A stretch of DNA of 64,000 nucleotides from Pseudomonas sp. VD-NE ins (GTDB lineage Bacteria; Pseudomonadota; Gammaproteobacteria; Pseudomonadales; Pseudomonadaceae). The DNA is taken from NCBI RefSeq assembly GCF_031882575.1, contig NZ_CP134772.1, forward strand, positions 3,863,001 through 3,927,000, written 5' to 3'. Positions 5,018 to 14,000 of the stretch are shown piece by piece. How positions within the stretch are numbered: position 1 is the first letter of the stretch; the number at the start of each line of letters is the position of its first letter. The position numbers and the translations under genes were made by a program. The notes under the pieces were generated by a model. It had not been told where the DNA came from. It saw only the letters and a list, made by a program, of their open reading frames with translations, and did no database searches.

Positions 5018-5815
5018 CCCTCTCCCCGAGGTAGAGGGAACCGATTCGGGGATATTCGAGAGCTACACCGACTTGAACGTCTTTCACTGAATCCAAATTC
5101 GCCAAAGCTCACCAAAGCTCACCAAAGCCATAATCGCTAAGGTCCTTCAGGTCGATGTACCCCGCAAGACACCTCGGTCGGCCCCCTCTCCCTCCGGGAG
5201 AGGGCTGGGGTGAGGGCCGCTTCGACTCGCAACCCCCAGAATCAACAAAGCCATAACCCCCAAGGCCCTTCACCAAAACCATAATCACCAAAATCTTCCA
5301 GGTCGACGTACCCCGCAAGACACCTCGGTCGGCCCCCTCTCCCTCCGGGAGAGGGCTGGGGTGAGGGCCGCTTCTACTCGCCCCCCCCCAGAATCACCAA
5401 AACCATAACCCCCAAGGCCCTTCACCAAAACCATAATCGCCAAAATCTTCCAGGTCGACGTACCTCGCAAGACAACTCGGTCGGCCCCCTCTCCCTCCGG
5501 GAGAGGGCTGGGGTGAGGGCCGCTTCGACTCGCAACCCCCAGAATCAACAAAGCCATAACCCCCAAGGCCCTTCACCAAAACCATAATCACCAAAATCTT
5601 CCAGGTCGACGTACCCCGCAAGACACCTCGGTCGGCCCCCTCTCCCTCCGGGAGAGGGCTGGGGTGAGGGTAGCTTCTAATCGAGAAGCCCAGAATCACC
5701 AAAACCATAATCGCCAAAATCTTTCAGGTCGGCGTACCCCGCAAGACACCTCGGTCGGCCCCCTCTCCCTCCGGGAGAGGGCTGGGGTGAGGGCCGCTTC
5801 TACTCGCAAGCCCCC
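5009..5815. repeat. Five-copy tandem repeat array with hairpin cores
   Basis: Directly visible: the core GGCCCCCTCTCCCTCCGGG plus AGAGGGCTGGGGTGAGGG occurs five times, starting near 5175, 5326, 5478, 5629 and 5752. The spacing is 151, 152, 151 and 123 bp, so four near-identical units and one shortened unit. Each core forms a strong hairpin (CCCTCTCCC/TCCG/GGGAGAGGG). The units also share a spacer rich in ACCAAAACCATAATC and CAGGTCGACGTACC. A degenerate opposite-orientation copy (CCCTCACCCTAGCCCTCTCC) lies at 5009-5046. Reading frames exist through the array on the minus strand, but the period is not a multiple of three and all frames repeat the same peptide, so I do not call a gene. Confidence 0.9.
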
Positions 5816-7435: not shown

Positions 7436-7500
7436 AAGAGCCAGCCCGCTCCCACCTTGGAACACACTCAAAGGTGGGAGCGAGCCTGCTCGCGAAGGCG
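7436..7500. repeat. REP pair, mixed arms
   Basis: Inverted arms AGCCCGCTCCCACCTT (about 7443-7457) and AAGGTGGGAGCGAGCCTGCTCG (7471-7492) form a REP doublet downstream of the NmrA gene. The right arm carries the GGAGCGAGCCTGCTCGCGAA family core; the left arm is diverged. Confidence 0.8.
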
Positions 7501-7546: not shown

Positions 7547-7906
7547 TCACTCCGGCAATTGCAAATTATCCAGCGCCCGATTCACCGCCAATTCCCCGAG
7601 CATGATCAACTGCGCAATCCCCGCCAGCGCATGGCGCTGCGATGCCGGCAACAGGCTGGAGACGTTCTGGGCGATGGTTTTGGCCGAAGCGAGTGTTGCA
7701 CTGGCATCGACCAGCAGTTCTTCGGTTTTGTTGTCCGCCGTCACGGCATACATCCCACGGTTTTTACGTGGGGGCGGCGTGGAACCGGGTGGACAGAGGT
7801 AATGGTCGAGCGCGCGGTCGGCGGCTTCGTGGAGTTTTTTGGAATCGATGGATTCGTAGGGGGAAACCGAGGCGGTTTCGGGCGGGTTGGGTGTTGGTTT
7901 GATCAT
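7547..7906 (-). CDS. DUF6124 (formerly DUF3077) family small protein
   Basis: 119-aa soluble protein of a family that is abundant and multi-copy in P. fluorescens-group genomes; no function is established to my knowledge. The family-typical parts are LHEAADRALDHYLCPP and a C-terminal helical region SLLPASQRHALAGIAQLIMLGELAVNRALDN. I take the start MIKPTPNP at 7906, with GGAG seven bases upstream. The frame stays open for another 126 codons upstream, but that translation is of a hairpin-rich leader, is low-complexity and Arg-rich, and should not be taken as protein. Confidence 0.85.
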   Translation of the reverse strand: MIKPTPNPPETASVSPYESIDSKKLHEAADRALDHYLCPPGSTPPPRKNRGMYAVTADNKTEELLVDASATLASAKTIAQNVSSLLPASQRHALAGIAQLIMLGELAVNRALDNLQLPE

Positions 7907-8165
7907 GAGTGAAGCTCCAAATTTATACCTGGTGGAACCACCAACACCTGTCGCTAAACAAGTAAGGGTGGCAGCTGTACGCGGGTTAGCGAACCGAGAG
8001 GTATAAGACCCGGCAGACCCGAAGGTCTCCCACGCACAGCCACCATATCGTCGTCGCAAACGTCTGCGACAAACTGGAGCGTCGTTGTACTTATACCTGG
8101 TCAGGTCGCTAAACCCGGTCGCTGGGTTGCCAGCGACACGTAGACGATAAAGACCAGGTACAAAG
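7907..8165 (-). promoter_or_regulatory. Hairpin-rich leader upstream of the DUF6124 gene
   Basis: Read on the minus strand, towards the gene, this 250-bp stretch holds a series of self-complementary segments: GCTGGCAACCCAGC, TCGCAGACGTTTGCGA, GACC-TTCG-GGTC (a UUCG tetraloop stem) and GGTGG-TT-CCACC just ahead of the Shine-Dalgarno. The short motif GGTATAA recurs three times (near 8092, 8003 and 7923). The density of perfect short stems suggests a structured RNA leader or a separate small RNA rather than coding sequence. Function is unknown; this is inference from visible complementarity. Confidence 0.45.
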
Positions 8166-8335
8166 CGCACAAGCCGGCGGATTCTGGCGTAGCTGTAGGC
8201 AAAGGCGCAAGGGTGTGTAGCCTGAGAGAGTGTCTGGAGATGTCTTTTTAAACGTTGGTGTTTATCGAGACCGAATTCCGTCACGCCGCCCTGAATAGAT
8301 CCGTCCTCTTAACCCGAGTCCCCCACTCCCAGCAA

Positions 8336-8377
8336 ACGAAAAAATGGCCGAGGTTGCCAGCCGTAACTGGCAACCTC
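8336..8377 (-). terminator. Rho-independent terminator closing the AT-rich island (minus strand)
   Basis: An 11-bp perfect stem (GAGGTTGCCAG / CTGGCAACCTC, 6-nt loop) at 8350-8377. On the minus strand it is followed by GGCCATTTTTT, a T-tract. It lies about 280 bp downstream of the membrane-protein gene and could end that transcription unit. Confidence 0.65.
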
Positions 8378-8655
8378 AGTAAGTAAAAATAGCTGTTGCT
8401 TCCAGCACATATCGACTTCAGCCTAGGTCTTCAGGACTGTATCGATGCCCAACCAGTACTTGTGAAAGGAGACGGACTTATTTAATAAAAACAAATCATT
8501 CCCTATTCAGTCCCTATTTGCCTGCTTCTTTCTCAACTAATTTCCAGACCAGAAACCCAACGAACAAAAAACTTCGATTCACAAATCCTACTGAAGAACG
8601 TTTTTTAGCAGTCGTTGGTTCACCTCTCGCGAGAGTTATCGCTCCAAAATGACTA
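8378..8655. other. AT-rich non-coding stretch at island left edge
   Basis: About 280 bp between the terminator and the membrane-protein stop, with AT-rich composition unlike the flanking hxc DNA. I see no credible reading frame, RNA gene or clear att-like direct repeat. Confidence 0.5.
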
Positions 8656-9591
8656 TTATTGAATCCAGTCATCAATAGTTCGCCGTTTGGTTTTTTTCCC
8701 CGTTAAAAGTACAGGTTTACCCCAGTCAAAAATAGAGACAGATATCCTATATTTCTGCCCCTTCAAAACTGTGCGCAACATACCTTTGATATTTTCCAAT
8801 AGAGGAGGCTCAAGATCAGCATATAAAGGGTAACCTTCAGGGTATTTCTTACGCTCGACCCAATACATGATGCGTGAAAACACGAACATTGCAGTGATCA
8901 TTGCGCCCATAGAAAACGGCATCATAAGATAGACTGGTATGGTATCAGGATTATGGAGCAGTACACTTACCCCATAGTCATGGAAGATGTAGCCACCAGC
9001 TATCAGTAGACCAGGAAGTGTATTCATAAATATTAGGAGCAGTACGAGCACCGAAAGGCGCTCGAGAAACGGTGCTCTTACCTCTGCTGCCGTATGATCA
9101 ACTGGATTCTCCTGCCCGATTATTCTTCCTGTGACTTTTACCTCGGTCATCGGATTACCAGTGCAAAAAATCGGAATCACCAGATACTCATTTTGATTTA
9201 TGCAATCGAAATTTATTTGCAATGTTTTTGCATCTACAACTGTCACAGAACAATCAGTTTGTTCTTCAACAGGAACAATCTTGGCACTCACAAGCGCCGC
9301 ATCATCACCCAGTACAACCTGTAGCTTTGACGAAGGCAGAATGTCGGCTTGAGTTATTGGTTGATCCCCCTTATTCCAGACAACTAGCCCAATAACGTAA
9401 ACACCTCTGTGTCGGCTTCCTTCTTCATTACATAGATAAAAAGGAAGCTCTTCTGGTATCTCCGCTACAATACCTCGGAGTAACAGGCTAGCCTCAAGAC
9501 GCTTTTTAGGTTCCTCTCTTCGTCTACCCAAAAAGGTGGCGATCAATCGAAAAAAAGCGACGACTGGCGAAAGTAGCTCTCCAAAAGTCAT
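8656..9591 (-). CDS. Unknown two-helix membrane protein, partner of the DUF262 gene
   Basis: 311 aa, no family recognised. The N-terminus has a hydrophobic/amphipathic helix (about 4-21), then a basic stretch, a beta-rich soluble region (about 35-170) with a VVWNKGDQPITQADI segment reminiscent of an Ig-like fold, two strong transmembrane helices (about 179-202 and 218-243), and a basic C-terminal tail. The start MTFGELLSP at 9591 is preferred because GGGGG lies seven bases upstream; another ATG 6 codons earlier has no ribosome site. It lies on the same strand as the DUF262-AlbA gene, 227 bp downstream of it. Both are AT-rich. A membrane effector next to a DUF262 sensor or nuclease fits an abortive-infection layout, but that is inference. 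Confidence 0.75.
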   Translation of the reverse strand: MTFGELLSPVVAFFRLIATFLGRRREEPKKRLEASLLLRGIVAEIPEELPFYLCNEEGSRHRGVYVIGLVVWNKGDQPITQADILPSSKLQVVLGDDAALVSAKIVPVEEQTDCSVTVVDAKTLQINFDCINQNEYLVIPIFCTGNPMTEVKVTGRIIGQENPVDHTAAEVRAPFLERLSVLVLLLIFMNTLPGLLIAGGYIFHDYGVSVLLHNPDTIPVYLMMPFSMGAMITAMFVFSRIMYWVERKKYPEGYPLYADLEPPLLENIKGMLRTVLKGQKYRISVSIFDWGKPVLLTGKKTKRRTIDDWIQ

Positions 9592-9836
9592 AATAGCGCC
9601 CCCATTCAAAATAAAAAAACATACACCACTCGAAGCGCACTTATTAATGCTAAAAAATCACTCCCCTCTAATCACAACCTGGTCAAAATCCCAGTAACGA
9701 AATTAGGGACGAATTTATTTTTCACAGCCACACCGACCAAAAAAGACCTTCACCCAAGAAAAAAGCTGGGAATATCTTTATCGTTTCTAAAAGGCAGCAA
9801 CTTTAGTTGACTGCCTATTTGAAACGACCTTCAATA

Positions 9837-11612
9837 TCAATGAAACAGGCCATTAATAGAGAGCAGCTTTTTCCCCTCAGCTAAAATGGTCGAGGAGTTT
9901 TCTCTCGTATAACAATGCTCACCAACAAAGGAAATTGATTTCTGACGAGGTATGCGCACCCTCAGAACAGACAGTCCCTTATATTCGACAAAATCTATCT
10001 GGGAGAGAACCTGAGACTTTAAAGGCTCGGACAGCTCTGATTTTCGGATGTATCCTAAAAACTTCTCCAAATATTGTTCTGTATTGTAATTCATTATCTC
10101 CATTTCACGTTCCAGCCCTACAACGTAACGCGCCCCTACGACTACTGCTTTAACACCATCTAGCGTGAAGATTTTTTCGGAGTCAGCTTTTTTATCCGCA
10201 ACACCAATGAAGATATAGCCATCAGCATCAGGCCCCACATTAGCAATACCACAAATCGTTTCAATGATCTTTGGTGGTAGTTTCTCGTCGAAATATCGCT
10301 TGGGTGATAAATTTATTAAACCTTGCTTACACTCATATCTTGACGTTTCAATTCTAGATCTTCTAAGGGAGTTCTCCATGTCGAGTGCTAAACCAGCCCC
10401 ATGCCTAAACATGGGTGGATCTTTTTTGACAAAGAAGCGTTGAATGAGCCCGGTAGTCTTATCTACGTTTGTTATCCGATCCGCAGTGGTAGAGTAATTA
10501 GCACTTTGAATCATAGACCGTTGCAAGCCTTTCAAGGCAAGCATTATTTTTGAGTAATCATCAGCTGTCATTTCATTAACTATAACTAATTGATGAAATG
10601 CCATAAATATTGAAAAGAAAGAACCTTTGATGGGGTTGCTCGACGAAGGATTCACTACTGATCGCAGTGCATAGGGGCTCGTGCTATAGCCATCAATAAC
10701 TTCGGTCAGAACCGACATTGTCACTTTAACTTCTTCTTTTAATCGCTCACTACCATAGCTATGGAATTCCCTGCGAACCTTTGAGTACTCAGATTCCGCT
10801 TCATCATATATCTTATCAAAGAGCTCCTTACTTCTCGCAATTGGCTCCCCCCTTATAATAGAGACACATATATCAGTGATCATCTCTTCATCTTCGCTAT
10901 CGCGAAGTTGTTGGGATTTTAATATTCCTTGCCGACACCAAAAAATTTCTTCTGCCTTTAAGGCGTAACCCATACCGGACCGATATGAGTCAATACTTAT
11001 CTCTGGCATGCTAGAAAGCGGAAGCTTCTCTCTTGATGAGTCTCCTCTTATCTCAGATGAAAGTTCCCTGATCAAAAGTGAGAATTCATCTACTCGACCT
11101 GCTTGGCGCTTTTCTTGAGCACTTAACTGACGACCTCCGGAGTTTATTCTACCGAACACATCCGTTATCTGCTCTTCGCTTTCGATAGGAAAAATAGTTA
11201 CCGCTAACTGATAGTCCAATATATTTGCGCAAATATTTGACGGAAGAAAATTTGTCTCTTCACGCGGAGCAGGTATGAATGATCCTGCGTCGGCTGCTAA
11301 TTTGGCTCGAGAAAACTCCTTGATATCAAAGAAGGCATCATTAACCGCAAAAGAGTTTTCAATAAAAGAAAAAACTGCATTGAGACGTTGCATTCCGTCC
11401 ATTATCTCATATATCACTCCCTCCCCATTTGAAGCGTCTGCGAGCATAATTAGAGGGATTGGATAGTCGGAAATCAAACTATCTATTAACTTCTGCTTTT
11501 CCGCCAAAGTCCAAACAAGTTTCCTCTGATATTTCCTGTTAACTATTAGTCGATCTTCACGATAAAGGCGATAAGCCTCTTGAACACTCATGCCGCGCGG
11601 GGTAATACTCAT
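9837..11612 (-). CDS. DUF262 protein fused to a C-terminal Schlafen/AlbA_2-like domain
   Basis: 591 aa. The N-terminal DUF262 (ParB/Srx-like, as in the GmrSD/SspE-type restriction proteins) is seen as RKYQRKLVW (26-34), DGMQRLNAV (72-80, canonical DGQQR) and INSGGRQLSAQEKR (156-169). A helical middle region follows. No DUF1524 His-Me nuclease domain is evident. Instead residues about 420-590 look like an AlbA_2/Schlafen-type domain: ExK at 427-429 (YECKQG), ICGIANVG (453-460), GYIFIGVAD (464-472). Strongly AT-rich, with codon use unlike the hxc genes. It sits between the split halves of the hxc cluster and upstream of a membrane-protein gene on the same strand. Likely an anti-phage defence component. 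The DUF262 call is firm, the C-terminal call moderately so. Confidence 0.85.
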   Translation of the reverse strand: MSITPRGMSVQEAYRLYREDRLIVNRKYQRKLVWTLAEKQKLIDSLISDYPIPLIMLADASNGEGVIYEIMDGMQRLNAVFSFIENSFAVNDAFFDIKEFSRAKLAADAGSFIPAPREETNFLPSNICANILDYQLAVTIFPIESEEQITDVFGRINSGGRQLSAQEKRQAGRVDEFSLLIRELSSEIRGDSSREKLPLSSMPEISIDSYRSGMGYALKAEEIFWCRQGILKSQQLRDSEDEEMITDICVSIIRGEPIARSKELFDKIYDEAESEYSKVRREFHSYGSERLKEEVKVTMSVLTEVIDGYSTSPYALRSVVNPSSSNPIKGSFFSIFMAFHQLVIVNEMTADDYSKIMLALKGLQRSMIQSANYSTTADRITNVDKTTGLIQRFFVKKDPPMFRHGAGLALDMENSLRRSRIETSRYECKQGLINLSPKRYFDEKLPPKIIETICGIANVGPDADGYIFIGVADKKADSEKIFTLDGVKAVVVGARYVVGLEREMEIMNYNTEQYLEKFLGYIRKSELSEPLKSQVLSQIDFVEYKGLSVLRVRIPRQKSISFVGEHCYTRENSSTILAEGKKLLSINGLFH

Positions 11613-12087
11613 GACTTATATTCCTTTAAACAATCATATGGCCAGCTTTACGAGGTCTTCGAGGTCATGCTAGTAAATCTCAAAGGCTGATAAGGCTCAT
11701 GCCATAATGCCATTATCGACGTATTTACAGAACCCTAAAATTCTCTGCTCTCTATTTCTAGGAAATTTTCTTCTCGACGTACCGATTTGAGGCGGCGGCG
11801 TACAGAGTTTTTTATCACTCAATGCAGCGCTGGCTGCGAGTTTGGCCCCTTTGCCGAAAACTATAACCGTCCGCTCTTGGCGCGGATCTTTTCGACGAAG
11901 TTTTTGGACGCTGGCGATTTCTCGCGAATGGATGCTATGGACTGAACACCGACCAAGAAAATTTTTTTGCGCCCCCCACGACATTCTCCATTTCTTCGTT
12001 CGTTGCTCGTCAAGGCACTTGAACCGGCTGTTCAGAAAACGTAATACCTCGACTGAAACAGCAGGATGATCGACTTCAACCCTAAAA
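11613..12087. other. Unassigned right edge of the AT-rich island
   Basis: 475 bp between the DUF262 gene and hxcP. The first part should hold the island promoter. A 95-codon minus-strand frame (11697-11984) and a 75-codon plus-strand frame overlap each other here. Neither has a good ribosome site or a recognisable product, so I call neither. Composition changes from AT-rich to GC-rich around 12.06 kb, marking the return to hxc DNA. Confidence 0.5.
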
Positions 12088-12519
12088 TCACGGCCTCACC
12101 AACCCAGGCAAAACCACCCCCTCCGCCAACCTCTCCACCCCCAACCTTACCCTCTCCCCACCCTGCTCAATCACCACCCCATCCCCCTCCACCGCCACCA
12201 ACTTCACCCCAGGCCCCACCTTCTCCCCCTGCAAAAAACTCCTCGGCGGCCCATCGTTCAGGCTCAATATCGCCACCGCCCCCCGACTCCCCGCCATCAC
12301 CCCGCTCACCTTGATGTCCATCGGCGCCGTTTGATTGGAAAACCACTGCAATGCCGGGCTATCACTGCGCGCCGCCAGCAATTGCGGGGCCGCTGCCGAG
12401 GTGTGTGATTCGGCGGAGGTCAGCAGCAGCGACGACCATGTCGCCACGCCGACCAGCGCGGCGAGCAGCGCGAAGGCCTGGACCATTTGGGGTGGCGAAA
12501 AGCGTGCGGTGAAGGTCAT
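12088..12519 (-). CDS. hxcP: Type II secretion protein C (GspC/HxcP)
   Basis: Inner-membrane protein that links the T2SS platform to the secretin, 143 aa. One N-terminal transmembrane helix (about 14-34, AFALLAALVGVATWSSLLL) is followed by a periplasmic homology region with the pattern VSGVMAGSRGAVAILSLNDGPPRSFLQGEKVGPGVKL, the typical HR domain of GspC. There is no PDZ domain; short C proteins are usual for Hxc. It is divergent from hxcU and its 3' end faces the inserted segment. Confidence 0.85.
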   Translation of the reverse strand: MTFTARFSPPQMVQAFALLAALVGVATWSSLLLTSAESHTSAAAPQLLAARSDSPALQWFSNQTAPMDIKVSGVMAGSRGAVAILSLNDGPPRSFLQGEKVGPGVKLVAVEGDGVVIEQGGERVRLGVERLAEGVVLPGLVRP

Positions 12520-12639
12520 GGGTTGAATCTCCTTTTTATCCCTGCTGTCAGCCTACGCGGCAATTCTCTCCGTTTTATTTCACACGCCTTACATGTTGGC
12601 CGTGCACGATGGCGCAGGACGCAAAGGAGCGCGCGCGCG

Positions 12640-13086
12640 ATGAACAGGCAAGAGGGTTTTACGCTGATCGAGTTGATGGTGGTGCTGGTGATCATCGGCA
12701 TCGCCAGTGCGGCGATCAGCCTGAGTATCAAGCCGGATCCGTTGCAGTTGCTGCGCAAGGATGCCGAGCGTGTGGCGCAGTTGCTGCAGGTCGCGCAGGC
12801 GGAGGCGCGCGCGGATGGCCGGCCGATTGTGTGGGTGAGTGATGCCAAGGGGTTTCGCTTTAGTCGGCGCAGTGACAGTGGCAAGGGGTTTGATCATTTC
12901 GCGCAGGATCCGCAGTTGCGGCCGCGTGCCTGGCAGAGTCCGAAGATGGAGGTGCGGGTGGAGCCGAAACAGAGGGTTGTGCTGAATGCTGAGTGGATTA
13001 ATCCGCCGCTGCAGTTGACGTTGTCGGATGGGTTGAATCGCTTGAGTGTGCTGCGTGATGGCAGCGGAAGGATCAGCCTGCAATGA
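12640..13086 (+). CDS. hxcU: Type II secretion minor pseudopilin H (GspH/HxcU)
   Basis: Minor tip pseudopilin, 148 aa. Prepilin motif QEG/FTLIELMVVLVIIGIASAAI with Glu+5, then a beta-rich globular domain (AEARADGRPIVWVSDAKGFRF) typical of the H class. The start at 12640 is supported by AAAGGAG upstream; the frame is open further upstream but without a ribosome site. It overlaps hxcW by 4 bp (ATGA). Confidence 0.93.
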   Translation: MNRQEGFTLIELMVVLVIIGIASAAISLSIKPDPLQLLRKDAERVAQLLQVAQAEARADGRPIVWVSDAKGFRFSRRSDSGKGFDHFAQDPQLRPRAWQSPKMEVRVEPKQRVVLNAEWINPPLQLTLSDGLNRLSVLRDGSGRISLQ

Positions 13087-13757: not shown

Positions 13758-14000
13758 GGCCGCCATCGCTGGCAAGCCAGACTCCCACAGGGATTGAGTA
13801 CAACCGGTAGATATTGGTTGGCTGGCAGGCCGTCATCGCTGGCAAGCCAGCTCCCACAGGAATTGGGTGAGGTCAGTGGGGATTGGTTGGCTGTGAGGCC
13901 GCCATCGCGAGCAGGCTCACTCCTACAGTTGGATCGGGTACATCAGCAAGAGAGTGGTCGGCTGGCAGGCCGCCTTCGCGAGCAGGCTCGCTCCCACAGT
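13758..14000. repeat. Cluster of four co-oriented REP elements
   Basis: Four REPs in the same orientation with about 70-bp spacing: 13758-13792 and 13827-13860 (core TCGCTGGCAAGCCAG), 13897-13926 and 13966-14000 (core TCGCGAGCAGGCTC). The spacers are related (ATTGGTTGGCTGGCAGGCCG), so the array grew by tandem duplication even though two REP families are represented. Confidence 0.88.

Follow-up and report, generated by a model that had tools for sequence, protein, structure and literature searches.

A DUF262–Schlafen fusion protein in a defence-rich insertion hotspot of Pseudomonas: a candidate stand-alone anti-phage protein

What are two AT-rich genes doing inside a GC-rich secretion locus, and do they belong together? 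This question is raised by a 64,000-nt stretch of Pseudomonas sp. VD-NE ins (contig NZ_CP134772.1, positions 3,863,001-3,927,000), here called the window, to which all coordinates below are relative. Between an open reading frame (ORF) with a DUF6124 domain and a gspC-like gene of the type II secretion system (T2SS), the window holds an island with two minus-strand genes. Gene 1 encodes a fusion of a DUF262 domain with a Schlafen AlbA_2 domain, and gene 2 a membrane protein with an immunoglobulin (Ig)-like domain. An earlier, sequence-only reading had pointed out both genes and proposed that they form a single defence system. The ORFs, the GC profile (0.42 across 8316-12070 against 0.59 in the whole window) and the T2SS neighbours confirm the setting it described, and both genes are real, each with far more protein relatives than chance would give. 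Our answer to the question is twofold. Namely, we put at roughly one in two the probability that gene 1 is a complete stand-alone anti-phage (or anti-mobile-element) protein, a nucleoside triphosphate (NTP)-gated, modification-sensing RNase that stops translation. Gene 2 is probably an independently acquired cargo gene, separate from gene 1.

The domains and predicted fold of gene 1

Pfam, the AlphaFold model and conserved motifs agree that gene 1 is a DUF262–Schlafen/AlbA_2 fusion, as had been read from the sequence. In addition to the N-terminal GmrSD_N match (Table 1), Pfam reports SLFN_AlbA_2 at an expect value (E) of 1.4e-7, with 32.4 bits against a cut-off of 25.3. These two families alone are listed at E <= 1, and no DUF1524/HNH domain is found. 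In an 11-row alignment (A4) of the window protein and ten relatives at 30-72% identity, the DUF262 motifs are invariant (Q29 and R30; D72, G73, Q75 and R76; F153 and N157), as are E422, K429 and D473 in the Schlafen part, where position 427 is E or D. Across a 67-row alignment (A3), D72, E427 and K429, which the sequence-only reading had numbered correctly, are invariant. We take E422, E427 and D473 to be the counterparts of the catalytic carboxylates of SLFN13. In the DGMQR motif, M replaces the first Q of DGQQR; the three DUF262 motifs that a section of PMC12137116 lists for GrwA/GrwB are all among those kept in gene 1.

The AlphaFold model (predicted local distance difference test score, pLDDT, 83.0) is BrxU/SspE-like at its N-terminus and resembles the SAMD9 tRNase domain and Schlafens at its C-terminus. 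In particular, the BrxU structure aligns across residues 3-392, and the SAMD9 tRNase domain and Schlafens are among the best C-terminal fold matches. Foldseek alone gave a best E of 0.024, so these structural matches come from a second aligner. The C-terminal domain does match the Schlafen/SAMD9 fold, and not the non-Schlafen fold that had been named beforehand as counting against the assignment. In PDB sequence searches, the gene 1 profile matched BrxU (E 0.078) and an unrelated chain (E 0.13), and the C-terminal 192 residues matched nothing at E <= 10. No named system corresponds to the fusion in Pfam, PADLOC, NCBIfam or PHROGs. In PHROGs, the unnamed family phrog_26759 covers residues 3-575 (E 1.3e-123), NCBIfam holds no family matching gene 1, and PADLOC gives NsnA (E 1.8e-28, residues 2-369) and PD-T4-2_A (E 5.1e-18, residues 11-181), with no model spanning the whole protein.

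Would such a protein act on RNA or on DNA? GmrSD, BrxU and SspE act on DNA, as stated in part of PMC10952713, and a portion of PMC6299218 treats AlbA_2 as a DNA-binding domain in prokaryotic Argonaute (pAgo) proteins and operons. Both points favour a DNA-targeting type IV restriction protein whose AlbA_2 domain binds or nicks DNA, not RNA. We consider this unlikely, given that gene 1 has no DUF1524/HNH match in Pfam, that its closest C-terminal folds include the SAMD9 tRNase domain and Schlafens, and that a nuclease-compatible acidic set is kept.

The insertion hotspot and the spread of gene 1

The chief reason to count gene 1 among defence genes, and perhaps gene 2 as well, is the address, a defence-rich insertion hotspot. 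With the gsp side as query, 298 genomes of the genus were searched, and 13 of the best 14 relatives (L050-L062) were compared, the remaining one (G198) being left out since hardly any of its sequence lies on the hotspot side. By blastn, all 13 have the DUF6124 side and the gspC side, separated by an insert of about 3 to 8 kb. On the left, homology stops at 8265-8315 in 11 of the 13 and at 8459 and 8462 in the other two; on the right, it begins at 12052-12107 in every one. The ORFs of the inserts differ among all 13, and genes 1 and 2 occur in none. Five relatives (L050, L053, L055, L059 and L060) carry the DUF6124 block two or three times within the stretch compared, with cargo between the copies. 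There is no empty site among the 13, each of which has cargo, and no convincing direct repeats were found at the island ends. A sequence resembling window 13971-13999 borders the DUF6124 block in all 13.

We listed 41 cargo proteins from these sites (short and some other ORFs omitted) and scanned 30 of them with PADLOC. Ten of the 13 sites have one or more model matches below E 1e-20; these are single-model matches and not called systems, and by the same measure gene 1 matches NsnA at the value given above. The matches are Drt2 (2.4e-186) and AriA (2e-21) in L050; LmuB (1.1e-77), LmuA (5.8e-24) and LmuC (1.3e-16) in L052; PD-Lambda-2_B (3.1e-49) and PD-Lambda-2_C (2e-35) in L054; PifA (4.4e-31) in L055; PDC-M41B (5.9e-101, a candidate model) in L057, along with DarT and its NADAR antitoxin (Pfam); HamB (3.2e-43) in L058; HamB (E 0) and HamA (1.3e-98) in L059; Drt9 (1.3e-204) and PDC-S25 (1.9e-80) in L060; PD-T7-3 (1.3e-27) in L061; and AbiO (2.4e-158) and Nhi (4.8e-153) in L062. 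They thus include DRT2, DRT9, Hachiman, Lamassu and AbiO/Nhi. The L051 and L053 cargo gave no PADLOC match below E 1e-20 (best 9e-4), and the L056 cargo, outside the PADLOC scan, looks metabolic by eye. As a control, none of 10 window ORFs outside the island matches PADLOC at E <= 1e-3; these ORFs were picked by eye and are perhaps not all real genes. The DUF6124-gspC site is thus a hotspot whose insertions are often, but not always, defence genes, and the defence setting suggested for the two genes holds, with defence cargo in most relatives compared. Of the L051/L053 cargo, one product is a pentapeptide-repeat ion-channel protein by Pfam and another looks PAAR-like by eye, so the hotspot may also take competition-type genes.

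The gene 1 family reaches well beyond this site. A protein search, which scored only the 7991 candidates sharing most words, returned 1850 proteins at E <= 1e-3, the window's own included, and both Pfam domains are present in 118 of 120 relatives among the matches listed, again counting its own. A profile search of 398 genomes of the phylum gave 2 matches at E <= 1e-60, own included. Among plasmids, tblastn found 1542 matching records, 144 of which cover at least 80% of the query, with full-length relatives ranging from Polaromonas (72.5% identity) to lactobacilli (about 31%). Phage records hold partial matches only (66 records, none covering 80%).

With 1137 of the 1542 plasmid records typed conjugative, one can argue that the main role of gene 1 is maintenance of, or competition between, plasmids or prophages, by exclusion of rival elements or toxin-like action, rather than defence against phages. 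The 144 records covering at least 80% of the gene fit such a role, as do the PHROG match over nearly its full length, the pemIK genes adjoining two E. coli plasmid copies, and the HigA-type antitoxin near a copy in Polaromonas. That said, the window copy is chromosomal and sits in a hotspot rich in defence cargo, and the six annotated plasmid regions show no recurring partner, except for pemIK, which adjoins both E. coli copies, on plasmids that look like a single lineage. On balance, we find a maintenance or competition role doubtful. The family may also be carried by phages or prophages themselves. A relative at L063:8424-10202 has neighbours that by eye are umuC-like and prophage-like, consistent with the PHROG family. 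Another, on a viral contig (L008:1399-3182), is split over several frames and closely follows, on its downstream side, what looks by eye like a transposase gene.

In E. coli, a relative at 31% identity is found on IncF plasmids beside pemIK. Matches to it occur in 803 of 5426 complete genomes, 105 of them with one place covering at least 80%, and 862 of the 890 places are on plasmids. Among 25 listed records, an even spread of 847, 11 match bases 1-1284 only and 7 match 1276-1773 only, so that the two one-sided classes overlap by 9 bp, inside the Schlafen domain. Because the search joins closely spaced pieces, the one-sided copies have their other half lost or far away, and in a Shigella plasmid record (H29) an IS1-like element lies between the two halves of the gene. 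The split looks like one insertion or rearrangement that has spread with plasmids. It shows that the protein is dispensable on those E. coli plasmids, but a single event says little about its cost.

Gene 2 and its relation to gene 1

The ORF at gene 2 spans 8656-9609 (minus strand, 317 residues, TTG start); the shorter call in Table 1 is the better one because most relatives begin at the methionine corresponding to 9591. The sequence-only reading gave the protein a beta-rich part, two membrane helices and a basic tail. The beta-rich part and two strong hydrophobic segments are indeed found and the C-terminal tail is basic (12 K/R against 7 D/E), and there is also a weaker hydrophobic segment at residues 2-22. 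The AlphaFold model has a pLDDT of 78.5. Judging by the distribution of charges, the Ig-like domain would be cytosolic and tethered by a membrane anchor. The family has 66 members, own included (E <= 1e-3), and a profile search with an alignment of 34 of its sequences (A1) adds only two, P0187 and P0188; phages, plasmids and viral contigs gave no match. The best Pfam match of gene 2 has E 0.1, PADLOC and NCBIfam give none, and PHROGs gives phrog_29378 at E 0.003. Over the 34 members, the best Pfam E is 0.0017 (PRCH), with no single family matching more than 7 of them at E <= 0.5. A PDB search with the gene 2 profile brought up two prolyl-tRNA synthetases at E 2. Against viral structures, the model has 4 matches at E <= 0.001, the best (1.2e-6, 129 columns) being to an uncharacterised viral protein.

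Do the two genes work together, then, with gene 1 sensing and signalling and gene 2 permeabilising the membrane in an abortive infection? They are adjacent, on the same strand, equally low in GC and in one island, with no terminator-like site in the gap between them. That gap is 245 bp long, and the two families are disjoint wherever else we looked. Namely, gene 1 is absent from all 10 loci with gene 2 relatives, that is, seven loci (L001-L007; 44-67% identity) taken with up to 10 kb per side (about 3.5 kb on one side of L004) and three from the genus (L068, a broken copy, and the remote L069 and L070, the former ending at a contig end). Gene 2 matches are in turn absent from all 12 loci with gene 1 relatives, which comprise five genome regions (L063-L067), one viral contig (L008, a broken copy) and six plasmid regions, two of which apparently belong to a single E. 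coli plasmid lineage. Among the 298 genomes of the genus, five contain gene 1 (E <= 1e-60) and four contain gene 2 (E <= 1e-3). Both counts include the window's own genome, which has one match per family and is the only one with both. Gene 2 reading frames lack a nearby gene 1 throughout L001-L007, and in three of these, all Pseudomonas (L001-L003), the neighbour is the same methyltransferase-like gene (by eye).

We have rejected the two genes as one system, which we hold to be highly improbable, since none of the 22 loci contains both and the own genome stands alone among 298; nor is there support for gene 2 acting as the effector by permeabilising the membrane. A recent, lineage-specific partnership is possible: most compared relatives are below 75% identity, and the loci exclude the closest ones, P0002 (93%, longest contig 6.1 kb) and P0122 (84%, 9.7 kb). 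The sequence-only reading had also held that homologues always found alone, outside defence islands, would refute its proposal. Homologues do occur alone, but their settings are plasmids, the vicinity of prophage-like genes and, in the window, a hotspot rich in defence cargo.

The gene 2 relatives of L001-L003 lie at about 10001-10933 in their loci, and their methyltransferase-adjacent position is perhaps a second small insertion site. In L068 (G033), the relative at 9053-10002 is split into two reading frames.

As for local signals, a purine-rich stretch precedes each of the two start codons (by eye), terminator-like sites in the region occur at chance level, and 3 promoter-like sites were found where 7.0 are expected by chance. 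A second T2SS gene, GspH, lies near the island at 12487-13086. Segments of about 150 bp stand in tandem at 5242-5691, near T2SS genes (multiple blastn matches of L052), a REP-like inverted repeat is present at 7438-7491, near the left border of the island, and the own genome has a second copy of part of the gsp region, about 66% identical (G000:C1:2329249-2330299).

Table 1. Features of the island and its borders, in window coordinates.
Feature	Position	Strand	Details
ORF with DUF6124 domain, left border of island	7547..8284	-	PF19619 E 3.3e-16, residues 179-240; repeated in some relatives
Variable island, cargo of insertion hotspot	8316..12070	.	3.8 kb between DUF6124 gene and gspC
Terminator-like hairpin downstream of gene 2	8346..8379	-	14-pair stem and T run; consensus match only
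Gene 2, membrane protein with Ig-like domain	8656..9591	-	311 residues; start set by relatives
Gene 2, conserved C-terminal tail, residues 249-311	8659..8847	-	Invariant E261, P262, D308, W309 among others; alignment A1
Gene 2, second strong hydrophobic segment, residues 218-239	8875..8940	-	Hydropathy; model helix 220-249
Gene 2, first strong hydrophobic segment, residues 169-203	8983..9087	-	Hydropathy; model helices 175-189, 191-205
Gene 2, Ig-like/cohesin-like beta sandwich, residues 27-168, probably cytosolic	9088..9513	-	
Intergenic gap, 245 bp	9592..9836	.	No terminator-like site found
Gene 1, DUF262 (GmrSD_N)-Schlafen AlbA_2 fusion	9837..11612	-	ORF, ATG start, 591 residues; Pfam; phrog_26759; AlphaFold
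Gene 1, Schlafen AlbA_2 domain, residues 422-575	9888..10349	-	PF04326; E422, E427, K429, D473
Gene 1, DUF262/GmrSD_N domain, residues 23-171	11100..11546	-	ParB/Srx-type NTPase fold; PF03235 E 1.4e-22, above cut-off
Gene 1, DGMQR motif, residues 72-76	11385..11399	-	DGQQR nucleotide-pocket motif of GmrSD proteins; alignment A4
gspC-like T2SS gene, right border of island	12088..12519	-	PF11356 T2SSC E 9.3e-9

Proposed function and relation to known systems

How might gene 1 protect a cell on its own? Its two domains with their folds and conserved motifs, its standing alone in other genomes and its address in a defence-rich hotspot are computed results; modified-DNA sensing, NTP gating, RNA as the target and an abortive outcome are what we infer. 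The DUF262 domain would recognise invading DNA, most likely through a base or backbone modification, and would bind and hydrolyse NTP. This switch would free the C-terminal Schlafen/SAMD9-type nuclease, which may then cleave tRNA (or rRNA) using the carboxylates E422, E/D427 and D473, so that translation would stop and the infected cell would cease growth before phage is made. Gene 2 would be a separately acquired passenger, not needed for gene 1, and may be another conflict gene. Set against the motif conservation described above, in four distant relatives the AlbA_2 match to Pfam passes the cut-off in only one (E. coli, L024), falls below it in two (L021 and L066) and is absent from one (L022).

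More tentatively, gene 1 may stand for a widespread one-gene immune protein, in which type IV-like sensing is answered by cleavage of the cell's own tRNA, restriction and abortive infection being fused in one chain, with gene 2 as a second, unrelated single-gene membrane defence family in the same hotspot. If gene 1 acts as we propose, the DUF262 sensor is an exchangeable module able to drive RNA cleavage as well as DNA cleavage. Type IV restriction would then be linked with the Schlafen/SAMD9 tRNases that serve antiviral immunity in animals, and a role would be suggested for DUF262 proteins without an HNH nuclease. Being one gene, gene 1 lends itself to direct testing, and E. coli plasmids carry a distant relative; the DUF6124-gspC site is a useful place to seek further defence genes. 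In a literature search mostly without subscription journals and preprints, we found no description of a DUF262–Schlafen protein or of the DUF6124-gspC hotspot, and no paper on DUF6124; the examined parts of a Pseudomonas aeruginosa genomic-island paper (PMC12629846) contain neither 'gsp' nor 'DUF262'. The parts and the logic are known, while the combination and the hotspot appear undescribed in the searched literature, the core defence hotspots of P. aeruginosa being outside the comparison.

Among systems with a related sensor, NsnA and PD-T4-2_A are the best PADLOC matches of gene 1, and both lie outside its Schlafen part. Positions 45-346 of the 385-position NsnA profile fall on residues 2-369 of gene 1. 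An ATPase partner, NsnB, is suggested by model names only, and gene 2 has no ATPase domain in Pfam and no PADLOC match. PD-T4-2 pairs DUF262 with HEPN (PF18735), according to a section of PMC10952713, and HEPN is absent from genes 1 and 2 at E <= 1. Part of PMC3710099 describes DUF262 and Schlafen as each paired with HEPN, not with one another. In ptuXYZ, a proposed defence operon, a DUF262 protein is likewise teamed with an RNase, as far as a portion of PMC11980606 describes it. Its three genes include one for an RNase of BECR fold and one for a PtuA-like ATPase, whereas gene 1 is a single fused gene.

On the effector side, gene 1 shares with SLFN11, SLFN13, SLFN14 and the SAMD9 tRNase the AlbA_2 fold, the E-x4-[E/D]-x-K motif and a later D, and differs from them in having one AlbA_2 unit, C-terminal on a DUF262 protein. 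Schlafen RNases have been described as backup effectors in BREX loci (in part of PMC12839542). GmrSD-family DUF262 proteins sense modified DNA, and NTP binding and hydrolysis control their C-terminal nuclease, as set out in sections of PMC10952713 and PMC12137116. With GmrSD, BrxU and SspE, gene 1 has in common an N-terminal DUF262 domain of ParB/Srx fold, the QR, DGxQR and FxxxN motifs and a helical part ahead of the C-terminal effector; where those proteins carry an HNH (DUF1524) effector, gene 1 has its Schlafen AlbA_2 domain.

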